In this document: positions 1-64,000 of the stretch, one piece after another
Layout of the letters: each line of letters begins with the position of its first letter
Position numbering within the stretch: position 1 is the first letter of the stretch
Assembly: GCA_039583875.1 (NCBI GenBank)
Contig: CM077166.1
Span: 94,396,094-94,460,093 of the forward strand
Direction: 5' to 3'
DNA: 64,000 nucleotides
Source: Platanthera guangdongensis
Taxonomy: Eukaryota > Streptophyta > Magnoliopsida > Asparagales > Orchidaceae
Notes under the pieces: generated by a model
What the model was told of the DNA's origin: nothing
The model's database searches: none
What the model saw: only the letters and a program-made list of their open reading frames with translations
Position numbers and translations under genes: made by a program

Positions 1-76
1 AGCTTAGACTGTACTCGAGGCAAGAGGGCAGGGAACCGTTCCGCCAAGTGAGCATCTTGCTCTTCGCAGGGAATTC

Positions 77-298
77 TTTGGGTTGATTCTATAGCTTGTA
101 GCCCGGTGAGGAAAGTATGCCGCTCAGGCTCACCTGCCCACCTGGTCGCAAGTTATAGGTCATTCTGTTTTTTTAGCGGACTGCTTTTCTCTGTCCGCAG
201 AGTCCGCTTTTTGGGTTGATTCTATAGCTTGTAGCCCGGTGAGGAAAGTATGCCGCTCAGGCTCACCTGCCCACCTGGTCGCAAGCTATAGATCATTT
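77..298 (+). repeat. 133 bp-period duplication carrying a hairpin
   Basis: A segment of about 89 bp occurs twice (77-165 and 210-298) with few differences. The second copy has 11 bp inverted arms, TCTATAGCTTG at 221 and CAAGCTATAGA ending at 292. Inside them lies a further GGTGAG/CTCACC pairing. In the first copy the right arm has one change (AAGTTATAG). The function is unknown; it lies in the noncoding 3' region of E1. Confidence 0.7.
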
Positions 299-304
299 CT
301 ATTA

Positions 305-462
305 TGAGCGGATTGTTTTCTGTATCCGCTCAGTCCGCAGGGTACATATTCAAGTTTTATTTTCCTGTTATAAGCGGATTGGTTTCTATATCCGCTCAGT
401 CCGCAGAATTATAAGTTTCGATCACTTCTATTGTGAGCGGATTGGTTTTCTGTATCCGCTCA
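305..462 (+). repeat. Three tandem GCGGAT/ATCCGC hairpins
   Basis: Three units spaced about 65 bp apart each contain TGAGCGGAT, a 10-11 nt T-rich loop, then ATCCGCTCA followed by GTCCGCAG or GTCCGTAG. The first (305-332) and third (434-462) have perfect 9 bp arms; the middle one (near 371-398) has one mismatch. They form the densest block of the element-specific GCGGAC word. Confidence 0.75.
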
Positions 463-979
463 GTCCGTAGAATGATTCTCGCATTATTTGATAAATTCAT
501 CAATGAGCTTTTATATTATGTGCGGTCTGGCTTGCGGACTACAGCTATAACTAAGTACCCCAGGCATTATTATCAGCTGGCTGTTCTCTGAAGCGGATGA
601 TGAATGAGTTGATGTCTAAATACTTTAATCAACAAGGTTCACTGTAAATAATATATCATGCGGACTGCAAGAGAACTCGACAGAGTCCGCCTGAGTTTCT
701 TGGTCCAAAGTGGAACAATATTCTCTAATCAGCAAGATTCATTATAAATGACATATATCGTGCGGACTTCAATTGGAGCTAAACAGCGTCCGCCTGCTAT
801 TGTTTTTCTTCTAAAGGCAAACAGCAATTATTTCTAATCAGCAAGTTAAAAAGCCCAAGTTTATTAGCATGACATGCGGACTGCTAAATATCGGTGCGGT
901 GAGCGTGGAAAAAGAGCATTGCAGAAAGCACACATGACAAAAAATATCCTTTCTATTTCTTCAAAAAATTTTACATCAT
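463..979. other. E1 noncoding spacer with scattered GCGGACTG words
   Basis: No credible ORF is seen. The words GCGGACT and AGTCCGC recur singly (near 529, 660, 686, 757, 790 and 877). A weak repeat of the phrase around 'ctaatcagcaag' occurs near 725, 840 and, partly, 630. This is probably the 3' flank of the antisense gene that ends at 980. Confidence 0.5.
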
Positions 980-2876
980 TCAAAATGTTCGGCGGACTGC
1001 AATCTTGCGTCCGCCACTTTTTACAAGTAAAATTACAAAATGTATACATATGCATTGATCATCAGTCAGTCCGCTGTCTCTTCTCAGCAGGTGCAGGGCT
1101 GTCACCAATGATGTCGACATCTGGAGAGTAGCCCCCGAGCTGCTCCCACTGCTACCTGACCCTGAACTAGTGGCGGACCCGCTATGCGAGCTGCCAGTAT
1201 CAGAGGAAGAAGCAGAAGAGCCGGACTCGGCGGACAGACCCTCTCCTCGCCGGCTTGATTCGGCATTGTCCGCAGGGACTTGCTCTTCACCTTGAGAGCC
1301 TCCGTCTTCTTCTTCGTCTTCATCATCTTCCTCGACAACCTCTTTTCCTTTTTTGGCTCTTTCCATCGCCGCGACCTGAGGGGCCAGCTCAGGAAAGATC
1401 TCCAGGAAGGGGACGCCGCTCACTCCTTCCTTCATGAGGCCGTCGCAGGCAAGCCGCTCAACAGCAACCTCAACTGTCTCCATCACAAAAGGGAGCGTGG
1501 CGGCCCGGAATTTAGTGTTCTCCAAATCATAGGCGACCTGCAAAAGCAAGATTGCAAACTCAGACAGATCGCGGCGAATAGCAAATCCAGATCGCGGCGA
1601 ATTCAACTCACCGCCAGCTCCTCTCTTTGCCGGGCATTCCTTTCTCCCAGCCGCGCGTTCCTTTCCCTCAGCGCTTCATTATCTTTCTGAAGCTGTTCAT
1701 TTTTCCTCAACATGTCTCTGGCCAGTGTGGCAACATAATGATTTGTCACCGCGCTGTTCGCAGAGGCCTGAGAGGCCAGCAGAGGGAGGTCGGCGGCGGG
1801 CACCTTCTTCAGTTCGCTCAAGTTGCGCTTTCCGTAGAGAGTGGAGAGCGCAACATGGGCGTGGCGCGTTATCCGCGGACTCCTCCACGAGGGAAGTGCG
1901 GTGGATAAGCGGACATGCTTCTCCTTGCTGTGCCAATGGACCATAGGGTTCCCCCTAAGGTCCCTCTGGCTGATGCCAAAGCCGGACATGGAGAAGCTTT
2001 CGGAGGAGGAGTAGTCCGCAGCGACATCCCCTTCCTCCTTCCTCTTCTTTGCAACCGCTTCTTTCTTCTCCTTTTGTGTAGGAACAAAGCCGCTTGGCGT
2101 CTGCGGCAGGTTGGCGGGCACCGCCAAGGTCGCTGCAAAAAGAGAACCGGTTAAAAAGCATGGTGGCGGCGGATACAAAAGCTGAGTCCGCTAATACTTA
2201 CTGTCCTCAGGCGTGACGTCCGCTAAGCTCGCCAGCAGCGGAAGGTAGTGCTCAATATCAAGCCTGGCGTTGGCCAGGAACTCGACAATTGCGGACTCCA
2301 TTTCGTTCAGCTGCACGTTTTTGAAAGCAGAGTCCGCGCGCACTTGCGGATAAGTGTGCGCGAACCCGAGGTCGCCCTCAAAGATTAAGAACCTTGAGGT
2401 CCAGTTGTGGATCTTGTTTGGAAGACCCACTACTTTCATCCCCCTGCAATAGAAGTAAATTACGCCCTTGTAGGGGCGGCCTCCAGAGGCAGTTATGAGC
2501 GGACAGAGAATATTTTTCGGAAGATGTTCATTGAGAAGGCAATCCTTTCAGATCGCAGGTAAGAGAGGAAGCTGCAGATCGCAGCGACGGTATTCGGCGC
2601 GAGCTGGCCTGGGACCATCCCGTAGTGCTCGAAAATTGCGGCAAGCTCCCATAAGAGCGGGAACTTAAATCCGCTGTCGAAGTGGTCAACTGGAATGGCG
2701 ATCTGGGTCGCCGTCGAGAAGTTCAATCTTTCCTGGTGTGCGGGTAGGCGGACAAGAATGTTGGAATCCGCCATCTTCCTTTCAACAAAAGCCGCCAGAT
2801 CAGCCTCTTTCAAAGTGCATTTTCTGTGGTCGGCAGAGTGGAAGGCGACTGCAGCATCAGTACGCGCGGACACCAT
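980..2876 (-). pseudogene. Antisense accessory gene of E1, gypsy-type 'putative transposase' domain, spliced
   Basis: Read on the minus strand from the ATG at 2876. Residues around 60-120 contain a pattern (FPLLWELAAIFEHYG, then PGQLAPN) like the plant 'transposase (putative) gypsy type' domain, followed after a break by a YFYCRGMK segment typical of the same proteins. Two introns are well supported: 2201-2133 (donor GTAAGT, acceptor TTTTTGCAG) and 1611-1538 (donor GTGAGT, acceptor TTTTGCAG). Both restore the reading frame exactly. The second exon ends in a coiled-coil-like Glu/Arg/Asn-rich segment; the last exon has an acidic, Ser/Gly-rich tail. A one-base frame change near 2470-2500 breaks exon 1, so this copy looks dead. 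Its role in the element's life cycle is unknown. Confidence 0.65.
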
Positions 2877-7305: not shown

Positions 7306-8866
7306 TGGTGAGTCTGATTTATATAGGGTCTTTCGGAATCATCTGGGCTAGTTTTCATGCGTTTGCACTTCACTTTTAGTTCTATATCGTTCATATTTCT
7401 TATTATCTATTTTACCATAGGAAGTGCACACTTTGGCCCGTATTGTGTATTTCTGTACTTTTATTGTTTATACTCCTTATTGTGATTGCCTGAAATGTCT
7501 GCACATATTAGTGATTTGTTTTTCCTATTGGTACATGGGTCATGTACGTATTCCGGGAGTGTTTGGAAATAGGAATACTGTGCACGATCATCAGATCTAC
7601 TGCGCACGACCATTGGTCGTGCATCGATGATCGTGCGCACTTGCCTTCCTTTTCCAAGTTCTGCTTGGGCATACGCACGACCACTGGACATAGTGCGCAC
7701 GACCACCGATCGTGCGCCTATGATCGTATGCATTGATTCCTCTTTTCCTAGAGTAGTGTCTGGGTAATCGCACGACCATTGGACATAGTGCGCACGACCA
7801 CCGGTCGTGTGCCATTGCTCGTGCGCAGTACCCCAGTTCTTCTTCCTAATCTGCCATGCCAGTGCGCACGATCACTGGACACAATGGTCGTGCGCCCGTG
7901 ATCATGCGCATTGTTCAATTCTTCTTTCTATAAATATGCAGTTGTCACCCTAATTCCAAATCGCTCATTTTTCCTCCGTCGTTTTCGTCTTCGAGGAGGG
8001 ATTCCACCGTCCTCCTTCAATCTCCACCCTAGGGAGGTGCTCTGGGCAAGCTTTCACCACCAAATCCAAGCCGGAGCTTCCTCTCAGCCTCCTCCATCAT
8101 CTCTTGGGCTCATTTCAAGCTTCAACGCCATAGCCATCAAGCAAAGGGAATCTTGCAACTTTCGTCCGCTATCGTGACACGAAGAAGACAGGCCATTGGA
8201 AGGTGGTGACATCCCTTCTCTAACCCGGATGCAGTTGAGGACCGAGCTTGGACGCGGATTGACAACCCAATGATTCCAACCGTGAATCCTCAGCAAGACT
8301 TCGGATTCGGTCGATCTCTTGCCTTATTCTTCCTTTATTGTTGTTTATGTGTTGTTGTAAACTTTATTTATAGATGATGTGCGCTTAGTTGCAAAACACT
8401 TATATTAAATCATGTCTTTGTGATTTGTATTTTCATTATATTTGCTTGAGGTGCGCCATATTCCATCCACCACCATCCACCCTTGCCGCACTAGTAATTG
8501 CTAGTGGTGTGCGTAGAGAAGAGGTGCTCACGACCCTCATTCCGCCGTTCTAACCACCTCATCTGCAAGCCTACTCGTCCATCCGCACAGCGATTCGGTG
8601 CATAGCGGCTCGTCTAGTCTTCCATCCCGCCTGGCGAAGCATCGCATAGCGGCGTTGCATAGGAGTAGTTGTTAGATTTTTATTTTCTTTTTATCGCAGC
8701 AATCAAAACCCCCATCGTTACCGTCGACCTTGAGGACTTCAATCTCAAGTCCTCCTCGACATTAACTCCACCTTACTGTGTTCCTTGAGAGATCGATACT
8801 TGGGAAAGCCCATTTTATATTACTTGTGCGACCGGTTCACTGGCGTGATCATAGCATCACCTAGCA
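7306..8866 (+). repeat. Athila-like LTR (~1.56 kb)
   Basis: Begins just after the purine-rich TAAGTCTGAGGGTA and ends near CTAGCA, where E2 sequence starts. It contains a palindromic GCGCACGACC array (7600-7910), a TATA box TATAAATA at 7929-7936, and a U5-like end with 'ccttgagagatcgatacttggg' style sequence near 8780. No partner LTR is present, so both borders are approximate. Confidence 0.45.
7600..7910 (+). repeat. Array of GCGCACGACC / GGTCGTGCGC interrupted palindromes
   Basis: About four units mix GCGCACGACCA, a short central segment with GGACATAGTG or GGACACA, and CGATCGTGCGC or GGTCGTGTGCC. Each half is the approximate complement of the other, so the units are dyad-symmetric. The array ends about 20 bp before the TATA box. 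Confidence 0.75.
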
Positions 8867-13935: not shown

Positions 13936-16217
13936 TGTAACATCTCCATCCATTCATATAGCATATAATAGAAGGTCCGGCCGGGGCCCCACACCATATG
14001 CCACAAAATAGGCGGCGAAGTCACGGGTTGATATCAGAGCTGCGCATCCTAACTCATATCATTCTAGCGGAATATTTTAACATAAATACTGAACTCCAAC
14101 TATGAACGTCCACTGATATAAACACGCATATTTATATAGGAATGCACAGCAGATACAATATCGTTTGGCCTTATGGCCTTACAATTACTTTTTACAAGTG
14201 TGGATTTCAAACATTGGCAAGCAGGCCTGCCATACGTGAACCAAAAATCACATTTTTAGCTTAGCCTTCAATGTCTAGAAGCAGCAGCAACAGCAGCAGG
14301 TACTTTAGCCTTTATATGTCCCGCTCGCCACTCCAACATCTGCATAAGGACAGCCCACCGAACGGTGGCAAACAAGACAACGGTCAGCATTCAGCTGACC
14401 AATTTATAACGACCCTACCCCTTTCCCAGGGCAGTGGTATTCCTTCCCTGCAGGCATAACAATTTATAGACAGATATATAAATATTACACATTGTGCTCT
14501 CACAGACAAACAATCCATCACAACCATCAGCCACGCGGTCCGACAATCCGTGAACTAAGGACACATTCTTGGTGTATGGCGAACCAGGGTCCCACCACCA
14601 TTTTAGGGCCGAAACCCAACGGTAAAATTGAGCATTTAGTCTTAGTGGCACGTAGGCCTAAGACTCTCATTATGTGCTCCAACAGACAACACTTTCAGGT
14701 CTTCAAGTCAGAAGGACATAATACATGTACGGATCAGCCACCCCCCGTTGCTCAAGTCGCCTTGCCATCACCGAATACCAACGTACTCTCGGATAAGTAT
14801 AAGGCGCGGGTCAGTTTCACCTTGCCTGTTTGGCATGAAGACTTTTTAAGAACTCTCCAAGCTCACACATAGCCATACTGTCCCCGAGGGACTGGCTTCA
14901 CATTCATAGGTTAAATAGGAGCCACGCCCAGCATTAGCGACAGAACTCACTTTCCGTCCCTAGCTCTAACCTTAGCATTCATAGCATACAACACAAGCAT
15001 TTAGTGGGTGTTTTCCTAGGCTTCCACTCCAGTACTTGCTGCTACTATCATTCACGGGCACAACCCATTGAAATCACAAACATCATAAGGGTCTTTTCCG
15101 GGACTACCACTCCAGTACTTCCTATTACTGCCCTTCATAGGTCCAACCCATCGATTCCACAAATAAAAAAGTTTAACCGCGGAGTCTTCTCCGGTGTGCG
15201 AATGCAACATCACCAATCCAGACTAACCTGTCCAGATGGGCTTCACACAACATGCCTATTCTGTACTCCATTTTTGGATCTATATGCAAAATTATTGGGG
15301 ATTCCAAGAATCAACCCAAGGGAAATCCCTTCACAGTCCACGCTCTAGTGGAGGGGAAATCCATGCACATGCCAAAAGGAAGGACTTCACATGTCGAAGA
15401 AGGAAGATCGTTACCCTTGACGACCTCTTCGGAGCAATGGAATTATAGCCAGCTGGAAAGCACCGCAGCAGCCTTGCCTCCACAACGCTAGCCTCTGATC
15501 TCTAATCGGAACTCTGCAGCTCCACCGTTGGTCGGGTACCCTATCCTCCTCCTCCTCCTTGCTCTCTCTTCTCTCCAGCTTCTTAGAAAGAGAATAACCC
15601 AAGGCAAAATGAGAATTCTCTTCTCATATTCGGCCTTAAAGTAGCAGGGAGGACCCTGAGCCATCAGATCCCAGATAAAGGAAAAGGACGACCACGATCC
15701 GTCCACAAAAGTCTAATTTTTGGCTGACACGGCCTGTGACACGCCCGTGTCACAGGCCGTGTACCATCAGTGGCACACAACCGACTCATCTAGAAAAGTA
15801 CACGGCCATGTGACATGCCCGTGACACGGCTATGTGACACACCCGTGTCACAGGCCGTGTGCCTAGAGACATACTCGTGTCCTGCCCGTGATCACCAGGC
15901 CTCACTGCACAAGCCAGATCCAGAAAAGGACACGGCCATATGATAGGCCCGTGTCACAGGCCGTGTGACCTTACACGGTTTCATACACGCCTCCATCATG
16001 TAATTCGTCGAGCAAAGTTCTTCGACCAGAAGAGAACACGGCCTACGACACGCCCGTATCGTAGGGCGTGTTCCCTTTCAAAAATTTCATAGATCACATT
16101 TCGTCGACCACTCACCAGCCAGCTCAACCATACTGAGTAGGATATGGCGTGGGACACACCCGTGTCCCAGGCTATGTTGCCCTACCTGAACCCATACTTG
16201 GGATTTGGGGTGTTACA
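13936..16217 (-). repeat. 5' LTR of E2 (2282 bp)
   Basis: Minus-strand start TGTAACACCCC at 16217 and end ATGTTACA at 13936, next to the primer-binding site. U3 contains a dense ACACGG/CCGTGT palindrome array (15727-16190). A two-copy direct repeat of about 55 bp with ~82 bp spacing lies at 15025-15163. No gene lies inside; short ORFs here are noise. Confidence 0.8.
15727..16060 (-). repeat. Array of ACACGG/CCGTGT palindromes in E2 U3
   Basis: Repeated words GACACGCCCGTGTC and CAGGCCGTGT. The first unit (15727-15762) is a perfect palindrome with 17 bp arms (ACACGGCCTGTGACACG and its complement) around a CC centre. Decayed copies follow near 15803-15860, 15930-15965 and 16035-16072, and one more near 16146-16176. 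Confidence 0.85.
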
Positions 16218-17833: not shown

Positions 17834-17835
17834 AT

Positions 17836-17851
17836 TGGTATCAAAGCGAGG
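17836..17851 (+). other. E3 primer-binding site
   Basis: TGGTATCAAAGCGAGG begins two bases after the LTR end. It matches the initiator-tRNA-Met complement TGGTATCAGAGC with one change, shared with E10. Confidence 0.85.
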
Positions 17852-17965
17852 TTGGTAAAACATACCACACCTTGGTGGTTGCACGGGCTAACACCTGAAC
17901 CCAAAGATTCCTAGTTAGATCTGCTTGTTGTAGATTTTGTTATTAGAATTATTTCTTCACAAAAT

Positions 17966-38639: not shown

Positions 38640-38641
<2 letters not shown>

Positions 38642-46899: not shown

Positions 46900-47323
46900 T
46901 GTGGTTGTATGGAGACCGGGCGGTCTGGCGGTCTGATTCTGGTGGTTTAGAGATCGAGCGGTCTGTCGGTTTCTCTCCTTCGGTTTGGTGGATGGACTGT
47001 TGCTGTGGTTATCTGGGTGGTCTGACGGTTTGTCTCAGGTTGCTTAGAGATCGGGCAGTCTGTCATTCTCCTATGGCGGCTTGTTCTCTCTTTCTTATGG
47101 TGGCCAGGCGGTTAGCCTATTCGTCTAACCACGCGGCCTGTTCGGCTTGTTTTATGTTAAACCGCTTACACCTATAATTATTTAGTCCCACATTACTTAA
47201 TTTTAATCTCTCTCATCTCCTCCATTCTATAAAAGAGAGGTTATACATTTGTAATAGATATCTTTTTGGATTATAAAAAATTTTTTACTCCAATTTTTCG
47301 GACTCTTTTTTTCTGTTCGCACA
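46900..47323 (+). repeat. 5' LTR of E9
   Basis: Starts TGTGGTTGTATGG and ends TTCGCACA. U3 has a GACCGGGCGGTC/GGCGGTCTG array (46911-47150). TATAAAAG lies at 47228-47235. Confidence 0.9.
46911..47150 (+). repeat. GACCG/CGGTC palindrome array in E9 U3
   Basis: GACCGGGCGGTC is a 12 bp dyad. Variants (GATCGAGCGGTC, GATCGGGCAGTC, GGTGGTCTGACGG) follow, then GCGGTTAGCC and AACCGC words. In the right LTR (63325-63565) the corresponding copies differ at several CG sites. Confidence 0.8.
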
Positions 47324-49998: not shown

Positions 49999-50000
49999 AT

Positions 50001-50012
50001 TGGTATCAAAGC
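50001..50012 (+). other. E10 primer-binding site
   Basis: TGGTATCAAAGC, followed by GAGG, two bases after the LTR; same one-base variant of the initiator-tRNA-Met site as E3. Confidence 0.9.
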
Positions 50013-50127
50013 GAGGTTGGTTAAACATACCATATCTGTTTGGTTGTACAGGCTAACACCTGAACCCCAAGATCCCAATCTAGATCCTTCTTTTATATTT
50101 CATTATTAGATTTAGCTTGCACAAATC

Positions 50128-52196
50128 ATGGCCCAAAACAAAGATTATGCTAGCACCAGACCTCCAGTGTGCAATCTGTCAAAGTTTGCACTTTGGAAAG
50201 CAAGGATTAGACTCTACATGAATTCTATTGACGAAGACATTTTTAATTCTGTTTTGACAGTGTGTCCAAGACCTCCAGAGGGCACAAGCACAAATGCTGT
50301 TCCACCTCCATCAGGAACAGATGCTGACATCAAAAAGTGGAAAGTAGCTGATGCCAAGGCAATGAACATTTTAGCTCAGACAATGTCAGATGACATTTTT
50401 CAAAAAGTAGCTGAATGCAATTCAGCCAAGGAAATTTGGGACAAGCTCTCAGAAATTATCTCTGGCTCAGCTGATGAGAGAAAGGACAGAAGATCCCATC
50501 TCATCTCCCAATATGAGAACTTCAAGAAGGGAGAAACAGAGTCAGTGGGAGACATGTACAACAGACTGAGTCTAATTGTCAGTGAACTGAGGACATTAGA
50601 CAAAGAGATCTCACTGACAGAACTCAATGACAAGATCCTAATGTGCTTCCCCAGCACTTGGGATTCAAGAATCTGGCCAATTAAAGATGCCAGAAGTCTG
50701 AATGAGATCACCACTGAAGCCTTGTTGGGTAAGCTCAAATCTTATGAGCTACTCATCAAGAACAGAGAGGAAGAACAGAAGGCTGCTCCACCAGCCACAA
50801 GAAAGGAGAAGACTATAGCATTCAAGGCAACTGAGGATCTGCCTGAAGAAAAAGGAACAACCAATGATGAACTTCTCAGCTTGTTGGCCAAAAGATTCTA
50901 TAAGATGGCCAGAAAGGACTTCAGAAGAAGATCATACAAGGAGCAGGAAAGCCAAGGTATGACAAGTCCATTGGCAATAGCAAAGACATCATTTGCTTTG
51001 GTTGCAGGAAACCAGGGCATATGGTTCCTGACTGTCCAGAGAACAAGAACAAGGACAGAAGGGACAGAAAAGAAAGAAGAAAGGAGAAGGACTCCAAAAG
51101 GAATGGAAGTAGCAAACCTTCCTCCAGCAGAAATAAGCACACAAGGAAAGGATTTGTTGCTGAATCCTGGAGTGAGACTGAAGAGGAGTCAGAAGCCTCT
51201 TCCAGCTCAAGTGATGATGAGGATGATGCAGAGGAAAAGGAGTTCTGCATGATGGCAATCAATGCCTCACAACACAACTCAGAGGAAGAGGAGTCAGAGT
51301 CAGACTCAGAGACTCAACCTGAAGAAGATCAGGTAATCAGCTCTTTTGATTTTACTTCAGAAGATTTTAAATTTGAATTTAAAGCACTATGTTTAGACCT
51401 GCTAAAGTCTGAGAAAGAGATCATCTCTCTCAGAAATCAATTATCTGAACAAAGTGGTTTAAAATCAGAAAACCTCAAACTCTCTCAGGAGTTGGAGAAC
51501 TATAGGGAACAGATAGCTTCACTGAAGAGTGAACTCTCTGAGGCCAAGAAGCTTGAAGAATCTCTCAATGGGAGAAGCATCAAGCTGATGGACATCACAA
51601 GCACAGTGAACTCAAGATTCAACAGTACACTGGGCTTGGGTGCCTCATCCAGCCAACCTATTGTTCTAACAACCCCTATCAAGTTCATTTCTGACAAGGG
51701 AAAGGGAGTTGTAGAGGTTGCCAGGAAAAATTCTGATCTGCCTCAGAAAACTAAAGTCCAGCACAAATCGTCGAACGGAGATCGACGATCGCCGAATGAA
51801 GATCGACGATCGCCGAACGCAGCTCGACGATCTCAGGACAAATCGTCGAACGCTGATCGACGATCTAAGCCAAGATCGTCGAACGCTGGTCGACGATCCC
51901 ATATACCTGACCTCAGCCATAGTCGACAGTCGAACGGAGCTCGACGATCTGACCCAAGATCGTCGAACTCAGCTCCAAGATCGTCGAACAGAGGTCAGAG
52001 CTCTGGAAATTTTTTCAATGGCAAGTCAAAATTGAATCCTGAGGGTTTTTCATCCCAAACCTTCAACCCTGAATGGATTTTACCTCCAAGGAGATATCAT
52101 CCTGAAGGATATAAGAGTCAGCCAGGGATATCTTTCATCTCTGAATTTAAAGGTTATCAACCTAGGCCCAAGGTAAACTGGGTCAAAAACAAGTGA
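50128..52196 (+). pseudogene. E10 gag
   Basis: Starts MAQNKDYASTRPP. UBN2-type gag domain at about residues 60-200 (IWDKLSEIISGSADERKDRR; LSLIVSELRTLDKEI). One base appears lost in an A run near 50950, so the zinc knuckle (CFGCRKPGHMVPDC, all four ligands present) is read in the next frame, together with the Lys-rich and acidic stretches, a Leu/Glu coiled-coil segment, and an Arg/Ser repeat region encoded by the palindrome motif. It ends VNWVKNK-TGA at 52194-52196. E3 breaks at a different place, so the 50950 shift is a private mutation, not a programmed site. Confidence 0.88.
51768..51995 (+). repeat. Palindrome motif array inside E10 gag
   Basis: About seven TCGTCGAAC...CGACGATC units are set in frame, giving SSN-x-DRRS-like peptides (RRS six times). 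The same region in E3 is 19598-19775. The DNA word equals the LTR motif. Confidence 0.85.
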
Positions 52197-52197
52197 A

Positions 52198-55100
52198 TTG
52201 TTTTATGTGCAGGTGAAGACCTATCCAACATCTAACCAGCAATGGTATTTGGATAGTGGGTGCTCTAAGCACATGACAGGGAACAAGGACAACCTTAATT
52301 CCTTTAGAGCCAAGCTTGGACCCAAGGTTATCTTTGGTGACTCCAACTTTGGACAAACTAAAGGTTATGGAGCAGTCCAGATTGGTTCTGTAACCTTCAA
52401 GAAGGTAGCATATGTGGAAGGACTGAAGCACAACCTAATCAGCATCAGTCAGCTATGTGATGAAGGCTACCAGGTGACCTTCAGCAAAACCTTATGCAAA
52501 ATCAAGTCAGAGGACAACACAACTGTGTTGACAGGTAAAAGGAAAGGTAACATCTACCTAGTAGATTTTCTTTCAACTACTATAGATATCTGTTTATTCA
52601 ACTCAGTCTGTAGACCAAATGTTTTATGGCATAAGAGACTAGGACACCTAAACCTTAGAACTATTGCTAGGCTATCCAAGGACAACCTTGTTAGAGGACT
52701 ACCTTCTGGCCCCTACAAGAAGGAAGGACTCTGCAAGGCTTGTCAATTAGGCAAGCAAACTAAAAACAGTTTCAAGTCACTTAATAAGAGTGATTCACCT
52801 AGGATATTGTATCTGTTACACATGGATCTATTTGGACCCATCACAGTACAAAGCCTAGGAGGGAAATCCTACACTTTAGTGATTGTAGATGACTTCTCTA
52901 GATTCACTTGGGTGTTCTTTCTAAGGAAGAAGTCTGATAACTTTAAGTGTCTGACAGAGTTTCTCAAATGTATAAAGATTGAGTTCAATACTCACATTGC
53001 CCTGATCAGAAGTGATCATGGGACAGAGTTTGATTCTCTTCTTATGCAAGAGTTCTGTCAGAGTGAAGGGATCAGGCATACTTTCTCAGCTCCTAGAACT
53101 CCTCAACAAAATGGGGTAGCTGAAAGGAAAAATAGAACCCTTATTGAATCTGCCACTACATTGTTGTCAGATGCTCATCTACCTCTATCCTTCTGGGCAG
53201 AGGCAGTGAACACCTCCAACTATGTGCTGAACAGAAGTCTGATACATAAACTGAAGGGAAAGACTCCCTATGAATTACTCAAAGGGAAGAAACCTAAAGT
53301 TGACTATTTCAAAATTTTTGGTTGCACTTGCTATATTCACAATAATGATAAGAAATATTTAGCAAAATTTCAAGCCAAAGCTGATGAAGGAGTGTTTCTG
53401 GGATACTCCATGATCAGCAAGGCCTATAGGGTATACAATAAATCATCATTGAAAATTGAGGAATCTGTTCATGTTTCTTTTGATGAAACTAACATGTCTT
53501 TCAAGGAGAAGATTTCTTCTACCATAGAACCTTTGCAGGAACACTCTCTAGTTGAAGATATGAACAAGTTACAGGTTGCTCAAGAGAATGAAAGCAGTGA
53601 AGATGAAGGGAATGCTCAACACATTGAAGCCCAACTTGAAGAGCCAGTTGTTGTACCACAAGAGGAAACAACAACACAGGTTGGTGAACAATCAACACCC
53701 CCTGTTGATTTAGTAACATCAAGAGACCATCCAATTACCCAAATAATTGGAGAACTCTCAGCTGGTGTGCAAACCAGAAATCAGGTCAACCAAAACCTGT
53801 TGCACACCTGCTTCCTTTCTCAAATTGAACCTCAGTCCATTCAAGATGCAGAGCAAGATCCACACTGGATCATTGCCATGCAAGAGGAGTTGCATCAATT
53901 TGAGAGGAACAAAGTATGGGAACTAGTGCCAAAGCCAAAGGATCATTCCATTGTTGGAACAAAATGGGTATTCAGAAACAAACTGGATGATCAAGGAGTA
54001 ATAATAAGGAACAAGGCAAGGCTAGTTGCCCAGGGATATTCTCAAGAAGAAGGAATTGACTACGACCAGACCTTTGCACCTGTTGCAAGATTAGAAGCCA
54101 TCAGAATATTTCTAGCTTATGCAGCTCACAAAGGCTTCAAGGTTTATCAGATGGATGTCAAGAGTGCCTTTTTAAATGGAGACATCAAAGAGGAAGTCTA
54201 TGTCAGACAACCTCCAGGTTTTATCTCTCCAACTTACCCTGATTATGTTTTCAAACTACATAAAGCATTATATGGTCTCAAGCAAGCTCCTAGAGCATGG
54301 TATGAGACCCTAGCATGCTTTCTCTTGGAAAATGGTTTTATAAGGGGTAGAGTAGACCAAACTCTTTTTATTAGAACCCATAAGTCCCATACCCTACTAG
54401 TACAAATTTATGTAGACGATATCATTTTTGGTTCTACTGACTCAAAATTGTGCAGAAGGTTTTCTAACCTAATGCATTCTAAATTTGAGATGAGTAGCAT
54501 GGGTGAGCTATCCTTCTTCCTAGGATTGCAAGTCAAACAACATGCTGAAGGCATCTTTATTTCTCAAACCAAATATGCTAATGAGCTGGTTAAGAAATTT
54601 GGCATGTCTGAGGCATCTTGTATGAAAACACCCATGCCTACCAATGCTGTATTGATGCTGATGAACATGGGAAACCTGTTGATCAGACAACATATAGAGC
54701 AATGATTGGCTCTTTACTGTATCTTACAGCTAGTAGACCAGATATAATGTTTGCTACATGTATATGTGCTAGATTCCAAGTTAGCCCTAGAGAGTCACAC
54801 CTCACATTAGTAAAGAGGATTCTTAGGTATGTTAAAAGTTGTCCAAATCTAGGTCTCTGGTATCCAAAAGATTCAGCATTTGAGTTAACTGGATTCTCTG
54901 ATGCTGATTATGCTGGATGCAGAATTGACAGGAAAAGCACCAGTGGAACTTGTCAGTTCCTTGGTGATAGACTTGTCTCCTGGTTTTGTAAGAAACAAAC
55001 ATCTGTGTCAACTTCAACTGCTGAAGCTGAATATATGGCTGCAGGCAGTTGTTGTTCACAAATATTGTGGATTCAAAATCAACTCCTAGACTATGGTTAC

Positions 55101-55362
55101 AACTTAGAGAAGTCCAAAAATCTTTTGTGACAATACAAGTGCTATTTCCATAGCTCAAAATCCAGTCCTCCATAGTAGGACAAAACACATAGAGATTAGG
55201 CATCATTTCTTAAGGGACAATGTTGAAAAGAACAAAATTGAACTGCAGTATATCCCAACTGATTTACAAAGGGGAGATATTTTCACCAAGCCTTTGGATG
55301 AAAAGAAACACACTTTCTTCCTAAATAAGTTAGGAATGTTAGATGGAGGAAGTCTTAAATAA
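52198..55362 (+). pseudogene. E10 pol (protease-integrase-RT-RNase H)
   Basis: Begins in the +1 frame after the gag stop (first ATG 52198). Protease: [13 protein letters not shown]. Integrase zinc finger: HKRLGHLN with [28 protein letters not shown] and [13 protein letters not shown], all present. Reverse transcriptase: DVKSAFLNG, then [12 protein letters not shown], and catalytic YVDDIIFG (about 54413-54436). RNase H: SDADYAGC, then STSTAEAEYMA. One-base loss near 54655 and one-base gain near 55115 break the frame late; the end is at 55362. Nearly all catalytic residues are intact. The product would copy and integrate the element; this copy could only do so in part or by complementation. Confidence 0.92.
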
Positions 55363-55444
55363 TCCCCAAGATTTTGAAAGCTAAAATTGACCAAGACTAG
55401 GCAAAAATTCTGATTTTCCTTAGTGTCTAGAATTTTCTGATCTC

Positions 55445-55742
55445 TGAACTGCGCTCGACGATTTCCCCAAAGATCGTCGAACGGAGATCGACGATTTCCA
55501 GAATCGTCGAACTGAGTTCAGCGCCCCTCAGATAGCATGAACTGTCTCCTTCGGTCAACGATCGTCGAACGGCGCTCGACGATCGTTGTTCCCTGAACGA
55601 TCGTCGAACGGAGCTCGACGCCTTTCCAGATCGTCGAACGGAGATCGACGATGTTGGAGTCTCTTCAGATTCCTTTAGAAGCCTCGATCGTCGAACTGAG
55701 TTCAACGATCTTTCCATTTCTGCGTCGAACCCTAATATAAAA
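55445..55742 (+). promoter_or_regulatory. Motif array plus TATA-like box upstream of E10 ORF3
   Basis: Seven or so TCGTCGAACGGAG...TCGACGA units lie between pol and ORF3, then TATAAAA at 55736-55742. A leader of ~110 bp follows, with a possible splice acceptor (GTTTTTGCAG) just before ACCATGGCC. E3 has the same order at the same place. I infer an internal promoter for ORF3 or a cis-site for a self-encoded factor. Confidence 0.6.
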
Positions 55743-55853
55743 CTCATTTTTCGCCGTCGTTCTCTCTTGCGCTTTCAATTTCTCTGCAGAAATTTTCTTC
55801 CCTCCAAACAGTTCTACCTTGGTCGTTTTGTTTGTTAAGTTTTTGCAGGTACC

Positions 55854-58821
55854 ATGGCCGTCTCAGTTGCTGTCCTCGCCGCCATGAAGTTTGATGCAGG
55901 GTTTGACATTGATTTGGACTCCTTCAACACCACTGATCAATTCTTCCAGGACATCCTGAATTTATTCAAAGATCAGCATTTATCTGCCCTCATGACCACA
56001 AGAATCAAACTTGCCTCAGATGAAATCAAAGAATGGGTATATACTGCACACAACCTTGACAACAACACCATAGTTGGATCTATTGGTGGCACCCAGGTAC
56101 CTCTGACCCCAACAGTCTTAACAGAAGTTTTTGGTTTTAGAAATGGAGATGACTCTGCTGAACTTTCTGGAGAAGAGTTTACTGATATACTTGCCAGGAT
56201 GGGTCATCCTGAGGGAAACCCTAGCAAATTGTTTAAGAGGAACCTGTCAGTTGAATACAGGTTTCTGGCAGATGTTGTAGGCAAGGTCCTGTTGGCCAAA
56301 CACTCTGCTCATGACACCATCTCCAGACATCAGCTCTGCCTCATGGGAGCTCTGGTAGATAAGAAAAATCTGAATTGGGGAGAGGTCTTCTTTGACCTGA
56401 TAAAGAAGAAAATCAATAAAAGCTTTGTAAACTTTGGAAGAATCCTTGGAGTTTTCCTTCAGGCTAAGTGCCCTACTCTGCTGGTCTCCTCTGGAGTGCA
56501 CATCAATGCCTCCAAGAGACTCACCTGTGCCCTTTTTGGCAAATGGGACAGGCAGATTAGCAAGCCCAGCAGGCCCTCTTCAGCTGCCCCTTCAGGCACC
56601 AGGACTCACAGAGTCACTCCCCCCAGGTCTCTGACCCTGCAGAGAACCTGCCTGCTGCTAGTGCTGCTTTTCCTCCTCCTCCAAGTTCAACCCTACCTCC
56701 AGCTCCATCCACCACTCCAGCTCCATCAACAATTACAATCTCCAGCCCATCTCCAACCTCTATTCCATCTCCAGCAACCATTTCATCTCCACCAGCAGAC
56801 CACTTCCATTCCCTATTCTCCTATCCACCACCAGATGTCACCTCATCCCCATCCATCCCATCATTCACCCTTCTGGATGAATCCTACATGGATGATTCCC
56901 CCTCTTCTCCTCCAGACTTCCCCTCCTCCTCCACTTCTTTCCAAGATCTCCTCCACCACATCATTGACCAACCAACATTCACTCCATCCATATCCATCCC
57001 ATTATCCTCCATCTCCACCATTCCCACACCTGAGCCTTCCATTCCACTTCCAGCCTCCTCAGCCATCCCTCCTCCATCTACCTCTGCTCCTGCTATTGAG
57101 CATGTAGATCTTCCAGCCTTAGCTGACCAGTTGTATGAGCTCCTTGCACCCAGGCTCTCTCTTCTCATGGAGGCCTCTTTAGCTCCTCTACAACAGTCCG
57201 TGGCAGCTCTCTCTGCCAGGCTTTCCTCCTTCCTTCCTCCTCAAGCAGCACCCCCAGCAGTGTGCCTTGATACAGCTGTATCTGCATCCAGGCAGGGGGA
57301 GATGCCCTATGAAGCCAGCCTTCATGCTGCTGCTGCTGCCTCTGCTCCTGTTGTTGATTCTGCTGCCACTGCTGCTGTTTTTGTGTCTGCTTCTGCTACT
57401 GTTGCTGCTACCCAGTTCAGGCTCCTACTGCAGTCTTAGCAATTGACCTAGGGTCTTTGCTCTCTGCCTTTGATCCTGTATTCTACAGCTGTCTGCCAGA
57501 AGTGCATGCTGTCCAGCCCCCAGAGGATTTGTATAAGGCAATGGTGCCTTTCTCCTGCTGTGACCCCAGTATCATTTCTGCTTTTATTCATTCAGTGACT
57601 GCTGCTTCTGATGATGTTACTGCTGCTGCTGCTGAAGACAAGGCTGAATCTACTTCTGACATTGTTTTTGCTGCTGAAGAAGACAATGTTCCAACTACTG
57701 CTGATGAGCCCTCATCCCAGGATTTTCTGATGACAGGGGCTGTTGTTTTTGAGCCTGCTGAAGTTGTTGTTGTTGTTTCTGAAGCTGCTGCTGTGCTCCT
57801 TCCTGAAGTAACCACTGATTGTTTCTCTGCCATTGCTCCTGTATCTGTTGTTGTTACATCTGCTGCTTCTATTGCTCCTTCTGCTTCTGCTTCTGCCCCA
57901 TCTGCTGTAATGCAACTGAAAGAAAATTTGATGAAAAGGATTGATGCCTTATATGATGCACAGAGTTCTGAATCTGAGGATTACAACACTGCTTCTGATG
58001 ATTCCTCTGCCACCATTGCAAGGAAAAGGAAGGCAAGAAGTAAGGCATTGAAGAGGGTTCCTCCTGCCAAAGTTAGAGATGATAATGATGTTCCTTACTA
58101 TATTCTGCACAACTGTCCAATTACTGAGCATTGGATGCAGTTCTCTAAGAATCAGCTAAAGGCTATGAAGAAGAAAAGAAAGTTTGATAAGGACTCCTCC
58201 CAGTTCAAGCACCCTCATCCTCCTCCACCACCTCCACCTGATGCAGGTGCAGGTGGCAGCTCTGCAAGTTCAGGCCTAGCTAGAAGCCAGGCTCCCTACT
58301 AACCTCATGCTAGAACATATCAAAGGGAAAGCCAGTCTAGGGGCTCTTACTGTAGAAGGGGAGGATATAGGGGAAATCAAAGAGAGACTCAGGTTTACTC
58401 CAAAGGGCATTCCAGGCAGCATCCTTATTCCAGGGGAGGACATGTTCCTTCTGATACAACTTCAGGTCCATTCCCCTATAAGCTCAGAGAAACTGTGACT
58501 GCCAGGACTCCTCAAGATACTTCTTCCAACAGGTATGAGCCACCTGTTCCATTTGAGGACCCTGAGAGGAATCCTGTTGCTTGGACTGCTAGAATGAAAG
58601 AGTTGGCTACTTTAGACCAGATCAAGAAAGCCAAATAGCAAGGCCTGGACACCTCCAATATATCTACAATGTCAGAACAAAGACAGAAAGAACTAGAAAG
58701 ATATGCCTCCAGTAAGTTTTTTGATGCAGACAGGTACATGGAGTTGCATCCAGCTGCAGTGGTTCCCAGGACATCAAAGCAAATTTATTTGGGTGCAGCT
58801 GATGATACCAGATCCAAATAA
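55854..58821 (+). pseudogene. E10 ORF3 (accessory gene, plant transposon-protein-like)
   Basis: Starts MAVSVAVLAAMKFDAG in a strong ATG context (ACCATGG). The first ~240 residues are a folded domain resembling 'putative plant transposon protein' families: LTPTVLTEVFGF, KHSAHDTISRHQLCLMGALV, LNWGEVFFDLIKKKI, VFLQAKCPTLLVSSG. A Pro/Ser/Thr-rich linker follows (frame change near 56600-56620), then EHVDLPALADQLYELLAPRL, an Ala/Val tract, a frame change near 57430, and a basic region (ARKRKARSKALKRVPP) like a nuclear signal. A Pro run and an Arg/Gly/Gln-rich tail lead to a stop at 58821, with two TAA/TAG interruptions near 58301 and 58636. No membrane segment is seen. Nuclear or nucleic-acid-binding role is a guess. 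Confidence 0.72.
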
Positions 58822-59040
58822 CAAGCTTTAGATCCTAACAGAGAAATCAAGATGGTAAAAGGCAAAGAGAAAAAGTAACTCTGTAAGGTGACAATTCTTG
58901 GTTTTTCTGACTGATATCTGGATGTCATATATATATATCTCTGTGATGGTTCTGTAATGTCTAGCTGCTATTGTTTTTGTGTTTTTCTGATTGTATGATG
59001 TTGTTTGATTTTCCAAAGTCTGTAAATAGTTTTCCTAACC

Positions 59041-59055
59041 CAAATAGGGGGAGAT
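59041..59055 (+). other. E10 polypurine tract
   Basis: CAAATAGGGGGAGAT abutting the 3' LTR, identical to E3. Confidence 0.92.
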
Positions 59056-60644
59056 TGTTGGAACACCCTATTACTAATTTGGGTCAGGATCACTATGTCT
59101 CTAAGAATCTGTGTTTGACCTTCTGTATAGCTTAATAGGTCAATTAGAATTGAGTCCTAAGGGATCAGGAGTCTAGGTTTGGAAGCTGCCTTGAAGACCA
59201 AAGTTTTTCTGGGAACTAAGTCAAATCGTCGAGCTCAGCACGACGTTTCGTCGAACTCCGGTCGACGATCGTCTAGCTCAACTTCTGCAGATCGTCGAGC
59301 TCCATTCGACGATCGCTGAGCTCAACTTCTGCAGATCGTCGAGCTCCATTCGACGATCGCTGAGCTCAACTTCGCAATATCGTCGAACTCCATTCGACGA
59401 TCGGTGAGCTCAGGTCGACGATTTTGACTCTGCACTGGATCCTTATCTATGAGCTTAGTTCGACGATCTTTGAGCTCAGATCGACGATTTCTTTGCTGCT
59501 TGCATTTTCCAGGTCGCTGAGCTCAGCTCGACGATAGCAGAGCTCAGTTCGACGATTTCAGTTATCTTTCAGAATTCAAATTCAAATCAGATAGAAGTTA
59601 TTCTGCATTTAATTCAGAAGATCTGCCAGCCGTTTTCATTTACTCCTGGAGCAAGTTTCAAGGGATTTTTCAAGGAACAAATCAGTGGACTTTCCTTTAG
59701 AAGAAATTATGCAATTAAGGCTGTAATCAATGCAGACCAACGGCTATCTTTGACAGAGTAATATCATATTCAGACACAGAGAATAAAAAGACAGAATGTT
59801 TTTTTTTTGAATAAAATAGACAAGAAATACAGAGATTGACAAGGAGAGGACACACAACTCAATATACAGAGACCCCTTTTGAAAATATTCTGTCAACAAG
59901 AATTCTGAAGAACACTCATCAAAGAGATCAAGCTTTCAAACAAATCTTCACATCTCTTCAGCTCTCCAAGTGTTCAAGGCCAACATCATTTCAAGACTCC
60001 AGACACTCAACATTTCAGCTTGCTGAAATCATCTTTTGCTGGAGATCTATCTTTGAAGGCCTATCACCCTCAGCAAAGCTCATCTTCCTGAATATCAAGG
60101 ACTCAGGGGGAGCTTTGAAATCCATCCACTTAGTCCTCTCAGTTGATTGAGAAAGAGAAGACTGCCATCACTCTCTCACCCCCACTCTGTAAAGGGTTTT
60201 TCAAACTCCCTTCAAAAGTTTGAATCTGGTTTTTGAGCACCTTGTCAAAAGCTCATTGGTGGCAAGACACCTGATCAAAAAATCTATTTTGGTTTTTGAG
60301 CACCTTATCAAAAGCTCATTGGTGCCCAGGACACCTGATCAACTCATCCTGCAGTGGATTCCTACCTAGGGTGGTAGAAGAGTGGATGTACCCAAGTTGG
60401 GGAACCACTATAATTCCTTGTGTCATCTGGTTTTGCATGTTTTCTTTCTGTTTCTGGCCTAGATTTTCTTGTGCTTAGTTTCTGCATAGCTTAGTTTGTG
60501 ATTAGTTTTATTTCTGCTTCACTGCTTACACTCATTACAACAATTGTTGTAAAGCTTTGCAAAAGTTTTTCTTTGTGTTTTAAAAAGCACCACATACTCT
60601 ATTCACCCCCCTCTAGAGTATATCAGATCTAGTTTCCCCTTTCA
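59056..60644 (+). repeat. 3' LTR of E10
   Basis: Pairs with 48417-49998. Its array (59224-59560) is slightly closer to an ideal motif than the 5' copy at two CG sites. Ends CCCCTTTCA, then TCCAC. Confidence 0.96.
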
Positions 60645-61599: not shown

Positions 61600-61779
61600 G
61601 CTAGCTCTCTCCACCACGGATGCTCCGGATACTGAGGAACCCGCTGACCTGGATCTCCCCATTGCTCTTCACAAAGGTGTTCTGGCAGGTACCCAACACC
61701 CGCTTGCTGCTGTTGTTTCCTATGATCATCTTACCCCTTCTCGCAGAGCTTTTGCATTAGCTATCTCGGCCACTGCCAC

Positions 61780-63306
61780 CCCCCATTCCTACTAGGAGGC
61801 CCTTACTATTCCTCATTGGAAGGCTGTCATGGATGAGGAGATTTCTACACTCACTGAACGGGGTACATGGACCCTCTGTCCTCCTCCCTTCGACACAGAT
61901 GTTGTTGGCTATCGCTGGGTCTATGTGGTGATGTTCCGCCCCGACGGCAGTGTGGATCGTTACAAGGCCCATGTTGTTGCCAAAGGCTTTACCCAGACGT
62001 ATGGGGTTGACTATTTTGACACCTTCTCTCCAGTTGCTCGTCTCAGCACTATCAGGGTCCAGCTCTTTGTGGCTGTCAACCGTGATTGGCCCATTTCTCA
62101 ACTGGATGTTAAGAATGCCTTTTTATATGAGAACCTTTAGGAGGACGTCTATATGGAGCAACCTCCAGGGTATGTTGCTCTGGGGGAGATACATGTATGC
62201 CGGCTATGGAAGGCTATTTATGGTCTCAAGCAAAGCCCTCGGGCATGGTTTAACAAGTTCAACGGGATTGTGGCGGCCGTGGGTTTTACGAGAATTCTGC
62301 TGATCACTCCTTATTTATTCGCAAAACCTCCTTGAGTCTGGTAGTGCTTGTTGTATATGTGGATGATATTCTTCTATCTGGAGATGACCAGACTGGGATA
62401 ACCTTGACAAAGAAGCATCTTCGCCAACACCTGGTCACAAAGGATATGGGCTCTCCAAAATATTTTCTGGGGATAGAAATCTCACGGAAGCCCAATTCCC
62501 TTGTCCTCTCCCAACGCAAGTATGCTCTTGATTTGCTAAAAGAGGTAGGGCTAACTAGGGCTAATCCTGCCCGATGCCCCATGGCGACTGGAGAAGATAA
62601 AACATGGGTGGGTTCCTCTTCTTTCAGATGTTACGAGGTACAGACGTCTGGTTGGAAAACTTATATATATCGCGGTGACCAGACCCGACATCGCCTATGT
62701 CGTAGGCAAGGTTAGCCAATTCATGCAGGCTCCTAGGGAGTGCCATCTACAGTCTGCCCTGAGGATATTGGAGTATGTTGAATCAGTGCCTAGGAAAGGA
62801 CTACTATTTCAGAATAATGGTCATTTGAAGATTGAAGAGTACTCAGATTCAAGCTATGCTGATGACAAAGGAGACCACAAGTCAACGTCGGGCTATTGCA
62901 CCTTTGTGGGTGGAAATCTTGTGAGCTAAAAGAGCAAGAAATAGTCTATCGTCTCCAGGTCCAGTGCCGAAGCAGAATATCGAAGTATGACATCTACCAC
63001 ATGTGAATTGAAGTAGTTACGGGCTCTCATGCTTGACTTAGGAGAGGTCTACAATCATCCTCTACCTATGTTTTGTGACAACAAGGCCGCTATATACATC
63101 TCCAAAAATCTGGTCTACCATGAAAGAACAAAGAACATTGAAGTCGACTGCCACTTTATTCAGGAAGAGATTTTGAAGAAACAAATTTGTACTCCATTTG
63201 TCTCCTCCGATAAAGAGCTGGAAGATATTTTCACCAAGCTGGTGTCCACCTCCTTTCTTCACATTTGCGACAAGCTGGGCATGATCTACATATATGCTCA
63301 AGCTTG
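61780..63306 (+). pseudogene. E9 reverse transcriptase and RNase H, degraded
   Basis: Reverse transcriptase runs from [16 protein letters not shown] (61829) through [21 protein letters not shown] (then TAG), YGLKQSPRAWF and catalytic YVDDILLSG (about 62357-62385). RNase H has YSDSSYADDKGDHKSTSGYC, RSSAEAEYRS, CDNKAAIYI and IEVDCHFI, ending KLGMIYIYAQA at 63306 next to the polypurine tract. At least five stops (near 62140, 62333, 62927, 62942, 63014) and several frame changes. Confidence 0.88.
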
Positions 63307-63314
63307 AGGGGGAG
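63301..63314 (+). other. E9 polypurine tract
   Basis: AGCTTGAGGGGGAG directly before the LTR start TGTTGTTG; overlaps the last pol codons, as is common in Copia elements. Confidence 0.9.
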
Positions 63315-63738
63315 TGTTGTTGTATGGAGACCGGTGGTCTGGCGGTCTGATTCTGGCAGTTTATAGACCGAGCGGTCTGTCAGTTTCTCTCCTGAGTTTT
63401 GGTGGCTAGACTGTTGCTGTGGTTATCCGGGCGGTCTGACAGTTTGTCTCAAGCAGCTTAGAGACCGGGCGGTCTGGCGGTCTCCTATGGCGGCTTGTTC
63501 TCTCTTTCTTGTGGTGGCCGTGCGGTTAGCCTATTTGTCTAACCGCGCGGCCTGTTCGGCTTGTTTTTATGTTAAACCGCTTACACATGTAATTATTTAG
63601 TTCCACATTGCTTAATTGTAATCTATCTTATCTCCTCCATTTTATAAAAGGGAGGCTAAACCTTTGTAATAGATATCTTTTTGGATAATAAAAATTTTGT
63701 TACTCCAATTTTTCGGTCTCTTGTTTTCTGTTCGCACA
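63315..63738 (+). repeat. 3' LTR of E9
   Basis: Same length as the 5' copy (424 bp). Contains the GACCGGGCGGTC array and TATAAAAG at 63643-63650. Followed by the ATAAA duplication. Confidence 0.93.
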
Positions 63739-64000
63739 ATAAACTCAGGTGGATTCTGAGTAGAGGTAGAGGATTGATTCTGAAAAGCTTGTGGTATGGT
63801 TGAAGGATTGATGAAAGGGGGAATGTCATCAGGAATTATGTCCTGGATGGGTGAGTGAGGTGGAGATAATTGAGGTAGAGATGAATGAGGTGGAGATTAA
63901 TGAAGTAAAGAGAAATGAGGTATAGATGAAAGAAGTGGAGATGAATATGGTGACTGATGAATAAGGGTATTTGTATGAAAAATTGTGGATGGAATTTCTT
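63739..64000 (-). mobile_element. E8 (second part): ORF3 Pro/Ser-rich region
   Basis: On the minus strand this reads as Pro/Ser/His/Ile-rich protein (SPPHSSPP-like repeats), matching the linker of E10 ORF3 (SIPLSSISTIPT region). It continues the gene broken at 46899. The DNA has a short repeat of GAGGTGGAGAT-type units (63855-63945). The element runs off the window edge. Confidence 0.65.

Follow-up and report, generated by a model that had tools for sequence, protein, structure and literature searches.

CG-containing palindrome arrays in the LTR retrotransposons of an orchid, and CpG restriction in some of its Sirevirus families

We analysed 64 kb of the Platanthera guangdongensis genome (C20:94396094-94460093, assembly size 4.25 Gb; hereafter the window), where several long terminal repeat (LTR) retrotransposons carry arrays of short CG-containing palindromes (Table 1). 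An initial annotation had proposed that unrelated LTR families each possess a private array of interrupted CG palindromes in the U3 region, mostly just upstream of the TATA box. The labels E1-E9 are assigned here by word position, as that annotation carried no coordinates, and E10 was not separately placed.

Two Sirevirus-type elements at the locus

Two elements of the window, Copia1 and Copia2, encode Copia-type gag and pol domains (PF14223, RVT_2) and an additional open reading frame (ORF3) downstream of pol. In both, the polypurine tract is joined to the attachment site (AGGGGGAGAT-TGTTGG), a C run lies near the LTR end, and the primer-binding site TATCAAAGC is one base off the published 9-base Sirevirus site TATCAGAGC. 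The exact tract AGGGGGAG, in the form taken from the element itself and counted as exact copies only, has one copy in Copia1 and two in Copia2 (57294, 59046), so that multiple tracts were not clearly found. By their domains, attachment junction, C run and primer-binding site Copia1 and Copia2 belong to one Sirevirus-type family, and E3 and E8 are TCGTCGA arrays of these two elements. No Sirevirus relatives were confirmed among viral contigs.

The word of this family stands at three separate kinds of place, namely the LTR, the gag frame and the gap between pol and ORF3. The proposed U3 location therefore describes the LTR arrays and misses those located within gag and ahead of ORF3. The gag arrays (19595-19775 and 51765-51995) lie within the open reading frame, so that copies of the DNA word are translated into a repeated Arg/Ser-rich peptide of the gag protein. 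Beside Copia1 lies a tandem satellite (28444-30967, unit ~81 bp, also 109 and 242).

Table 1. Array-bearing elements and associated features of the window.
Feature	Position	Strand	Remarks
E1	150..1100		GCGGAT/GCGGAC..GTCCGC/ATCCGC dyads; words run on to ~6000
Athila-like LTR fragment	7595..7900		GCGCACGACC/GGTCGTGCGC dyads; TATAAATA at 7929; Athila-like is a label only, not assigned by coding sequence
E2	15727..16217	-	ACACGGCC/GGCCGTGT array at LTR start of Gypsy element; integrase 9649-10452 and reverse transcriptase 10968-12251, both minus
Copia1, Sirevirus-type element	16251..28444	+	LTRs 16251-17834 and 26856-28444, 95.7% identical; target-site repeat AGAAG
Copia1 5' LTR U3 array (E3)	16424..16706	+	TCGTCGAA..TTCGACGA
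Copia1 gag array	19600..19770	+	TCGTCGAA..TTCGACGA; in 3' part of gag reading frame
Copia1 pre-ORF3 array	23242..23520	+	TCGTCGAA..TTCGACGA; between pol and ORF3; TATA-like box downstream near 23525
Copia1 3' LTR array	27030..27320	+	TCGTCGAA..TTCGACGA
E4	30970..31120		weak GCGAGA/TCTCGC cluster upstream of TATAAATA (31334); gag-domain open stretch from 31519
E5	38060..38340		TTCTCGAGTA array; 7/9 CTCGAG steps 18-23 bp; not assigned by coding sequence
E7	42318..43110		TACTCGAGTA array, 26 exact copies; 21/27 CTCGAG steps 18-23 bp; TATA-like ctatataagg near 43240
E9 5' LTR	46900..47160	+	non-Sirevirus Copia; weak CGGTCT/AGACCG dyads
Copia2, second member of Copia1 family	48417..60644	+	LTRs 98.7% identical; target-site repeat TCCAC; sits between E9 LTRs
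Copia2 5' LTR U3 array (E8)	48585..48916	+	TCGTCGA word
Copia2 gag-frame array	51767..51985	+	TCGTCGA word
Copia2 pre-ORF3 array	55452..55730	+	TATA-like box near 55735; ORF3 ATG ~55854
Copia2 ORF3 first part, open stretch	55839..57104	+	weak Transposase_32 (PF20167), E 1.1e-6, below curated cut-off
Copia2 3' LTR array	59225..59560	+	TCGTCGA word
E9 3' LTR	63315..63580	+	dyads clearer than in 5' LTR

Abundance and symmetry of the arrays

The arrays are real, far above chance and genome-wide. Dyads with CG in the arm exceeded 300 dinucleotide-preserving shuffles in each of 13 array stretches in the window, as expected from the palindromicity that had been claimed. Observed counts against shuffle means were 114 vs 1.5 in E7, 19 vs 0.74 in E1, 18 vs 0.86 in E2, 14 vs 0.96 in the Athila-like fragment and 9 vs 0.46 in E5; in Copia1, 21 vs 3.2 (5' LTR), 21 vs 2.6 (gag) and 17 vs 2.7 (pre-ORF3); and 20 vs 3.0 and 20 vs 3.2 in the Copia2 LTRs. 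The 3' LTR of E9 gave 7 vs 0.16, and the weakest stretches were E4 (4 vs 0.36, p 0.01) and the 5' LTR of E9 (2 vs 0.10, p 0.02). Dyads without CG were also above shuffles (p<=0.02) in five of the 13, namely E2, E7 and three Copia1/2 LTRs.

Most of the individual words are strongly enriched over the expectation from composition: TCGTCGAAC and GTTCGACGA (31 and 10 copies vs 0.2 each), TACTCGAGTA (26 vs 0.07), TTCTCGAGTA (9 vs 0.07), GCGCACGACC and its complement (3 and 1 vs 0.03 each), ACACGGCC and GGCCGTGT (4 each vs 0.5-0.6), and GCGGAC and GTCCGC (36 and 34 vs ~9, with 32 and 31 of them in positions 1-6000). Three listed pairs show no window-wide enrichment and are visible through local clustering: GACCG/CGGTC of E9 (23 and 30 vs ~41 each), GCGAGA/TCTCGC of E4 (11 and 12 vs 11-13) and GCGGAT/ATCCGC of E1 (10 and 16 vs 11-13).

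Outside the window, we scanned 20 stretches of 10 kb each, placed at arbitrarily chosen round coordinates (200 kb in all), for 8-mers repeated on both strands, with 20 shuffles as control. The scan recovered 24 symmetric arrays in 15 stretches, 21 of them with a CG word, against a shuffle mean of 0.55; five stretches had none. Interrupted palindromes in this sample number 266 vs 19 expected when the arm contains CG (14-fold), compared with 50 vs 19 for GC (2.6-fold) and 287 vs 83 for arms with neither (3.5-fold). Under the same thresholds, four replication loci drawn randomly from a list of 140 (L029-L032) yielded five arrays in two loci, each with at least one CG word, and no array in L029 and L030. 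Four words were counted across the whole assembly, with the same pattern read backwards as control: TACTCGAGTA at 263,017 places vs 7,045, the E2 dyad ACACGGCC-N2-20-GGCCGTGT at 123,109 vs 4, the Copia1/2 dyad ATCGTCGA-N5-9-TCGACGAT at 121,170 vs 0, and GCGCACGACC at 39810+39947 = 79,757 vs 704+716 = 1,420. For these four, neither shuffle-level density nor confinement to a few dead local copies is tenable; the words of E1, E4, E5 and E9 lie outside that count.

The E2 element has an LTR start, a PBS-like site, and integrase and RVT_1 domains on the minus strand, which makes it a Gypsy element and bears out the claim that both Copia and Gypsy carry arrays. E5 and E7, thought to hold interrupted palindromes, are uninterrupted, and CTCGAG is common to both. 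E7 probably belongs to the Sirevirus lineage, judging from the anatomy around genome copies of its word: one TACTCGAGTA array (C1:6297016 on) starts 202 bases after a pol end (C1:6296814) that is 85% identical to the pol end of the L016 Sirevirus, and further arrays nearby are spaced as LTR and internal positions would be. E9, whose pol is 41% identical to Sirevirus pol over 172 aa, is by this comparison a Copia outside the Sirevirus group. In E1 the dyads are clustered as described, while GCGGAC/GTCCGC words extend across ~6 kb of GC-rich DNA (1-6000); three open stretches scanned there gave no match at the Pfam cut-off.

Words differ among many families, as the annotation held, but a strict rule of one private word per family is ruled out by shared TCGA contexts and by two words in one LTR type. 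Across 17 array stretches from Sireviruses, 283 of the 529 CpG contexts are TCGA, compared with 918 of 8047 for the sampled genome; the TCGA share is low in the related arrays of L023/L031 (15%) and L017/L019 (11%). The two-word LTR type (L032:8500-9650, L024:3801-5000) has TCGACGAA sites flanking a central block of same-orientation TGTCGACACC repeats. The Sirevirus-related loci L017:2900-4250 and L019:8500-9500 carry a GCGTTGAGTG/CACTCAACGC dyad, variants of which have TG or CA where CG stands.

CpG restriction and promoter anatomy in Sireviruses

Copia1 and Copia2 contain 146 and 160 CpGs in ~12.2 kb each, of which 130 and 155 fall in four clusters around the arrays. Their bodies retain 16 CpGs in 16,116 bp vs 677 expected, and the body of the TGTCGACA family (L013, L020, L028) retains 2 in 11,544 bp vs 473 expected (observed/expected, o/e, 0.004). 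The restriction reaches into codon choice: Copia2 pol uses 33 AGA/AGG and 0 CGN codons for arginine, 0 NCG vs 168 other NCN codons, and has two codon junctions reading C-G vs 99 reading T-G. Among 28 coding stretches that we chose for comparison, the 15 from Sireviruses (11 elements) have 0-0.45 of expected CpG, ten of them at <=0.11 and the least purged being L016 (0.37) and L023 (0.45), whereas the 13 non-Sirevirus stretches have 0.54-0.88. The randomly drawn L032 repeats both the array positions (gag end, before ORF3, LTR) and the purge, with 0 CpG in 663 bp of gag, 0.02 of expected in pol, and 0.26 and 0.03 in ORF3. Because non-Sirevirus stretches keep CpG and the Sirevirus-like L031 is unpurged, we conclude that the purge is a trait of some Sirevirus families, neither genome-wide nor universal in the lineage.

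In the gap between pol and ORF3, Copia1, Copia2, L020, L024 and L028 share one order: no CpG at the pol end, then an array whose CpGs are mostly in sites, then a TATA-like box, past which ordinary non-site CpGs continue for ~150-210 bp (~400 in L024) before almost none remain. A few last sites surround the box, and L028 has six array CpGs outside sites. In five of the six elements profiled, the box comes after the greater part of the pre-ORF3 array; it lies 106-121 bp upstream of the ORF3 ATG in Copia2, L020 and L028, the three elements in which the start of ORF3 is an open reading frame. A constant array-to-TATA distance was discarded as a measure, since the first slices had been chosen by eye and such offsets are no evidence; the TATA-to-ATG distance was measured instead. 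L016 has array and TATA on a noisier background. In the LTRs, a CpG zone follows the array in L028, weakly in L013 and not in Copia1 or Copia2; the Copia1 LTR has no TATA-like match and the Copia2 LTR a single one, far from the array. The claimed position just upstream of a TATA box thus holds for most pre-ORF3 arrays and not for E2 or the Copia1/2 LTRs, which lack a clear adjacent one.

The CpG pattern might be a mutational footprint only, in which methylated bodies were deaminated and promoter zones stayed unmethylated. TG and CA are indeed in excess in Sirevirus stretches (1.1-1.4), and ordinary CpGs persist just past the ORF3 TATA-like box. However, the non-Sirevirus stretches of the same genome retain most of their CpG, and an o/e of 0.004 over 11.5 kb is below what we would expect, by judgement and not by computation, of deamination equilibrium alone. 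CAG/CTG, moreover, shows no general depletion (0.74-1.38), so that the loss is CG-specific and CpG loss through CHG methylation is ruled out. We therefore regard a purely mutational origin as distinctly unlikely.

Two counts bear on CpG mutability within the arrays and LTRs. Of the 34 TGTCGACA variants that differ by one step, seven show a CpG transition, vs 125 intact sites, a weak indication of hypermutability because more decayed sites escape the count, and we set it aside. Change per base between paired LTRs, CpG vs other C/G, is mixed (0.081 vs 0.048, 0 vs 0.016, 0.217 vs 0.094), leaving room for faster CpG change in Copia1 and E9. Within the Copia1 LTR, five same-strand CG-to-TG differences from the 3' LTR fall in 30 bp (16439-16468), for which a deamination patch and conversion are candidate causes.

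How the arrays may be read

Sites are more constrained than the sequence between them. In five pairs of related copies, site vs spacer divergence is 0.053/0.209, 0.063/0.268, 0.138/0.291, 0.102/0.338 and 0.074/0.212, that is, 2-4x lower in sites in all five. Array CpGs were kept in 62/68, 40/49, 52/61, 36/44 and 78/98 cases (both directions; 80-91%), compared with 50-76% of GpC in the same stretches, and 0 of 5 CpGs were shared in a pol control. Among the first 50 plus-strand places listed on contig C1, with the pattern limited to spacings of 5-9, all but one (49) have their half-sites 7 bases apart, and the spacer sequences vary; common descent contributes to this fixed spacing. These data support the proposed selection for dyad-symmetric sites. 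The step length is 18-23 bp for TGTCGACA in 67 of 115 gaps and for CTCGAG in 32 of 42; such steps hold mainly for uninterrupted sites, and helical phasing was accordingly rejected as a general rule.

Arrays could also be by-products, lengthened through slippage or template switching and retained without selection, their CpG content high only because they are young. Unit lengths are regular within a family, and array length does change (98 of 720 columns are gaps in the Copia1/2 5' LTR comparison, both directions), as such a process would produce. It leaves unexplained why sites are conserved over spacers in every comparison, why a single word turns up at three distinct positions in both Copia1 and Copia2, why unrelated families show a parallel layout, and why the excess is so much greater for CG-arm dyads than for GC or other arms. 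We consider neutral growth very unlikely.

A role in RNA would have the palindromes act as transcript hairpins that feed host small-RNA silencing or RNA packaging, and a 2016 paper in Genome Res reportedly proposed the former for maize Sirevirus palindromes. Six arrays fold far better than shuffles, but any dyad array folds well, and folding is thus no independent support. In maize, palindromes of the Sirevirus LTR regulatory region are hotspots of small-RNA mapping (PMC5311732). Against this, the uninterrupted sites GTGTCGACAC and TACTCGAGTA have no loop of their own, although neighbouring sites can pair, and a position before TATA-like boxes suits DNA reading better. Mismatches within dyads comprise 6 G.U, 12 A.C and 39 others (the orientation of one counted array being assumed); with no G.U excess over A.C, the symmetry looks read on DNA and not through RNA wobble. 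We hold an RNA role to be quite unlikely.

Based on these findings, the reading we favour, and think somewhat probable, is that the arrays are selected DNA-level operator arrays at two promoters. We infer a dimeric DNA-binding factor that would read many dyad-symmetric CG sites on double-stranded DNA, as well as promoter activity and sensitivity to CG methylation. In Sireviruses the arrays would precede two promoters, that of the LTR and another from which ORF3 is transcribed, so that one factor could co-regulate both. In the most purged elements, sites and promoter starts would be almost the sole places for CG methylation to act, and array occupancy vs methylation could then set the element on or off. 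The factor may come from the host or from the element, with ORF3 as the obvious candidate.

Several observations weigh against this operator reading. The site mask was defined by motif match, which biases toward low site divergence, and for the 5' LTR arrays of Copia1/2 the sites diverge more (0.138) than the pol control does (0.107). Step lengths in interrupted-dyad families are uneven (15, 21-22, 33, 44, 57, 63-66, 93-95), and RNA folding is strong (z -3.8 to -7.0 in six arrays vs -1.2 in one control stretch). The nearest TATA-like match to the E2 array is ~280 bp past it, with four more 1.26-1.59 kb past, and L032, with its array and CpG zone, lacks a TATA-like match in the interval from the array to ORF3. 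L031 carries arrays at a CpG level of 0.33-0.76. Spacers within arrays are themselves CpG-poor (o/e 0-0.36 in five sets; the 2.3 in E5 comes from a single CpG), which speaks against a blanket protection of the arrays.

VANDALs are DNA transposons, and an anti-silencing system like that of their VANC proteins, one of the roles put forward in the initial annotation, would have an element-made protein, with Sirevirus ORF3 as the candidate, bind its own array and remove or block methylation, word and protein changing together. The layout resembles VANC targets in having short family-specific motif arrays, with many sites in several noncoding places per element and fast turnover (PMC5735166, PMC10398659), and the CpG-retaining zone spans array plus promoter start. 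A VANDAL with complete loss of CG methylation is refractory to silencing by RNA-directed DNA methylation (PMC10398659). ORF3 also diverges faster than pol: identity is 75% over 177 aa between Copia1 and Copia2 (pol 89%, same word), 50% between Copia2 and L024 (pol 75%, same pre-ORF3 word), ~25% between Copia2 and L020/L028 (pol 54-66%, other word) and 22% with L016 (pol 44-52%, other word), although fast divergence is expected of any weakly constrained gene. However, the VANC motifs YAGTATTAY and AGTTGTCC/AGTTGTAC contain no CG and are not palindromic (PMC5735166), VANC21 motifs are arrayed in one orientation (PMC5735166) where the arrays here are dyads, and a trans factor is known there (PMC5735166, PMC10398659). 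In the scanned ORF3 stretches the only related Pfam match was the weak PF20167, with no DNA-binding domain named, and a structure model (pLDDT 46, pTM 0.41) was too poor for a fold search, so ORF3 was dropped as a recognisable DNA-binding fold. The occurrence of two words in one LTR also fits badly, and we judge a VANC-like system unlikely.

The closest known counterparts are the repeated motif (RM) boxes described for Sireviruses in 2010. These palindromic CG-containing words recur many times within an element, both in the upper half of the LTR, ahead of the TATA box, and ahead of the env-like gene, and in several Sireviruses they constitute the sole CpG islands (PMC2829016). Since TCGTCGA and CTCGAG arrays sit in Sirevirus-type Copia elements, the core phenomenon of Sirevirus CG palindrome arrays is already known. 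The Sireviruses here repeat that layout, with a high-copy palindrome in the LTR and before ORF3 and a TATA-like box clear in the latter place but not in the Copia1/2 LTRs. A CGG-CCG core occurs in 12 of 13 published RMs, the Tnd-1 RM being the exception (PMC2829016), whereas the Sirevirus words here (TCGTCGA, TGTCGACA, CTCGAG) lack it; being TCGA-rich and coreless, these arrays would work like an RM box without being one by the core. RMs were called absent from classic Copia, and an internal promoter had already been raised (PMC2829016); here arrays also lie in the gag frame, and a non-Sirevirus Copia and a Gypsy element carry them. For the near-total CpG loss elsewhere in the element we found no counterpart in the available part of PMC2829016, nor any other published description in a search that left closed journals outside. 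Maize Sireviruses likewise have a palindrome-rich, highly variable LTR region (PMC5311732), with words that differ from those here. What goes beyond the 2010 description is thus the coreless words, the non-Sirevirus carriers, the nearly CpG-free bodies, the zone order before ORF3 and the site constraint.

A bolder form of the operator reading, which we hold to be rather improbable, is that Sireviruses of this orchid have been selected for almost no body CpG, so that heritable CG methylation cannot settle, with the array serving both promoters as a single CG-dependent on/off switch; the dimeric factor reading it would change its word from family to family, as in an arms race. Overall, our results suggest that the arrays and adjoining promoter starts are control sites of Sireviruses, and perhaps a methylation switch. 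Three of the four counted words occur at >100,000 genome places, so a factor that reads them would face a very large target load. The 2010 description of a motif thereby becomes a testable system, in which elements of a 4.2-Gb genome retain CG at hardly any place other than their control sites. Such a system would, moreover, reveal how an element can rid itself of the substrate on which heritable CG silencing acts.

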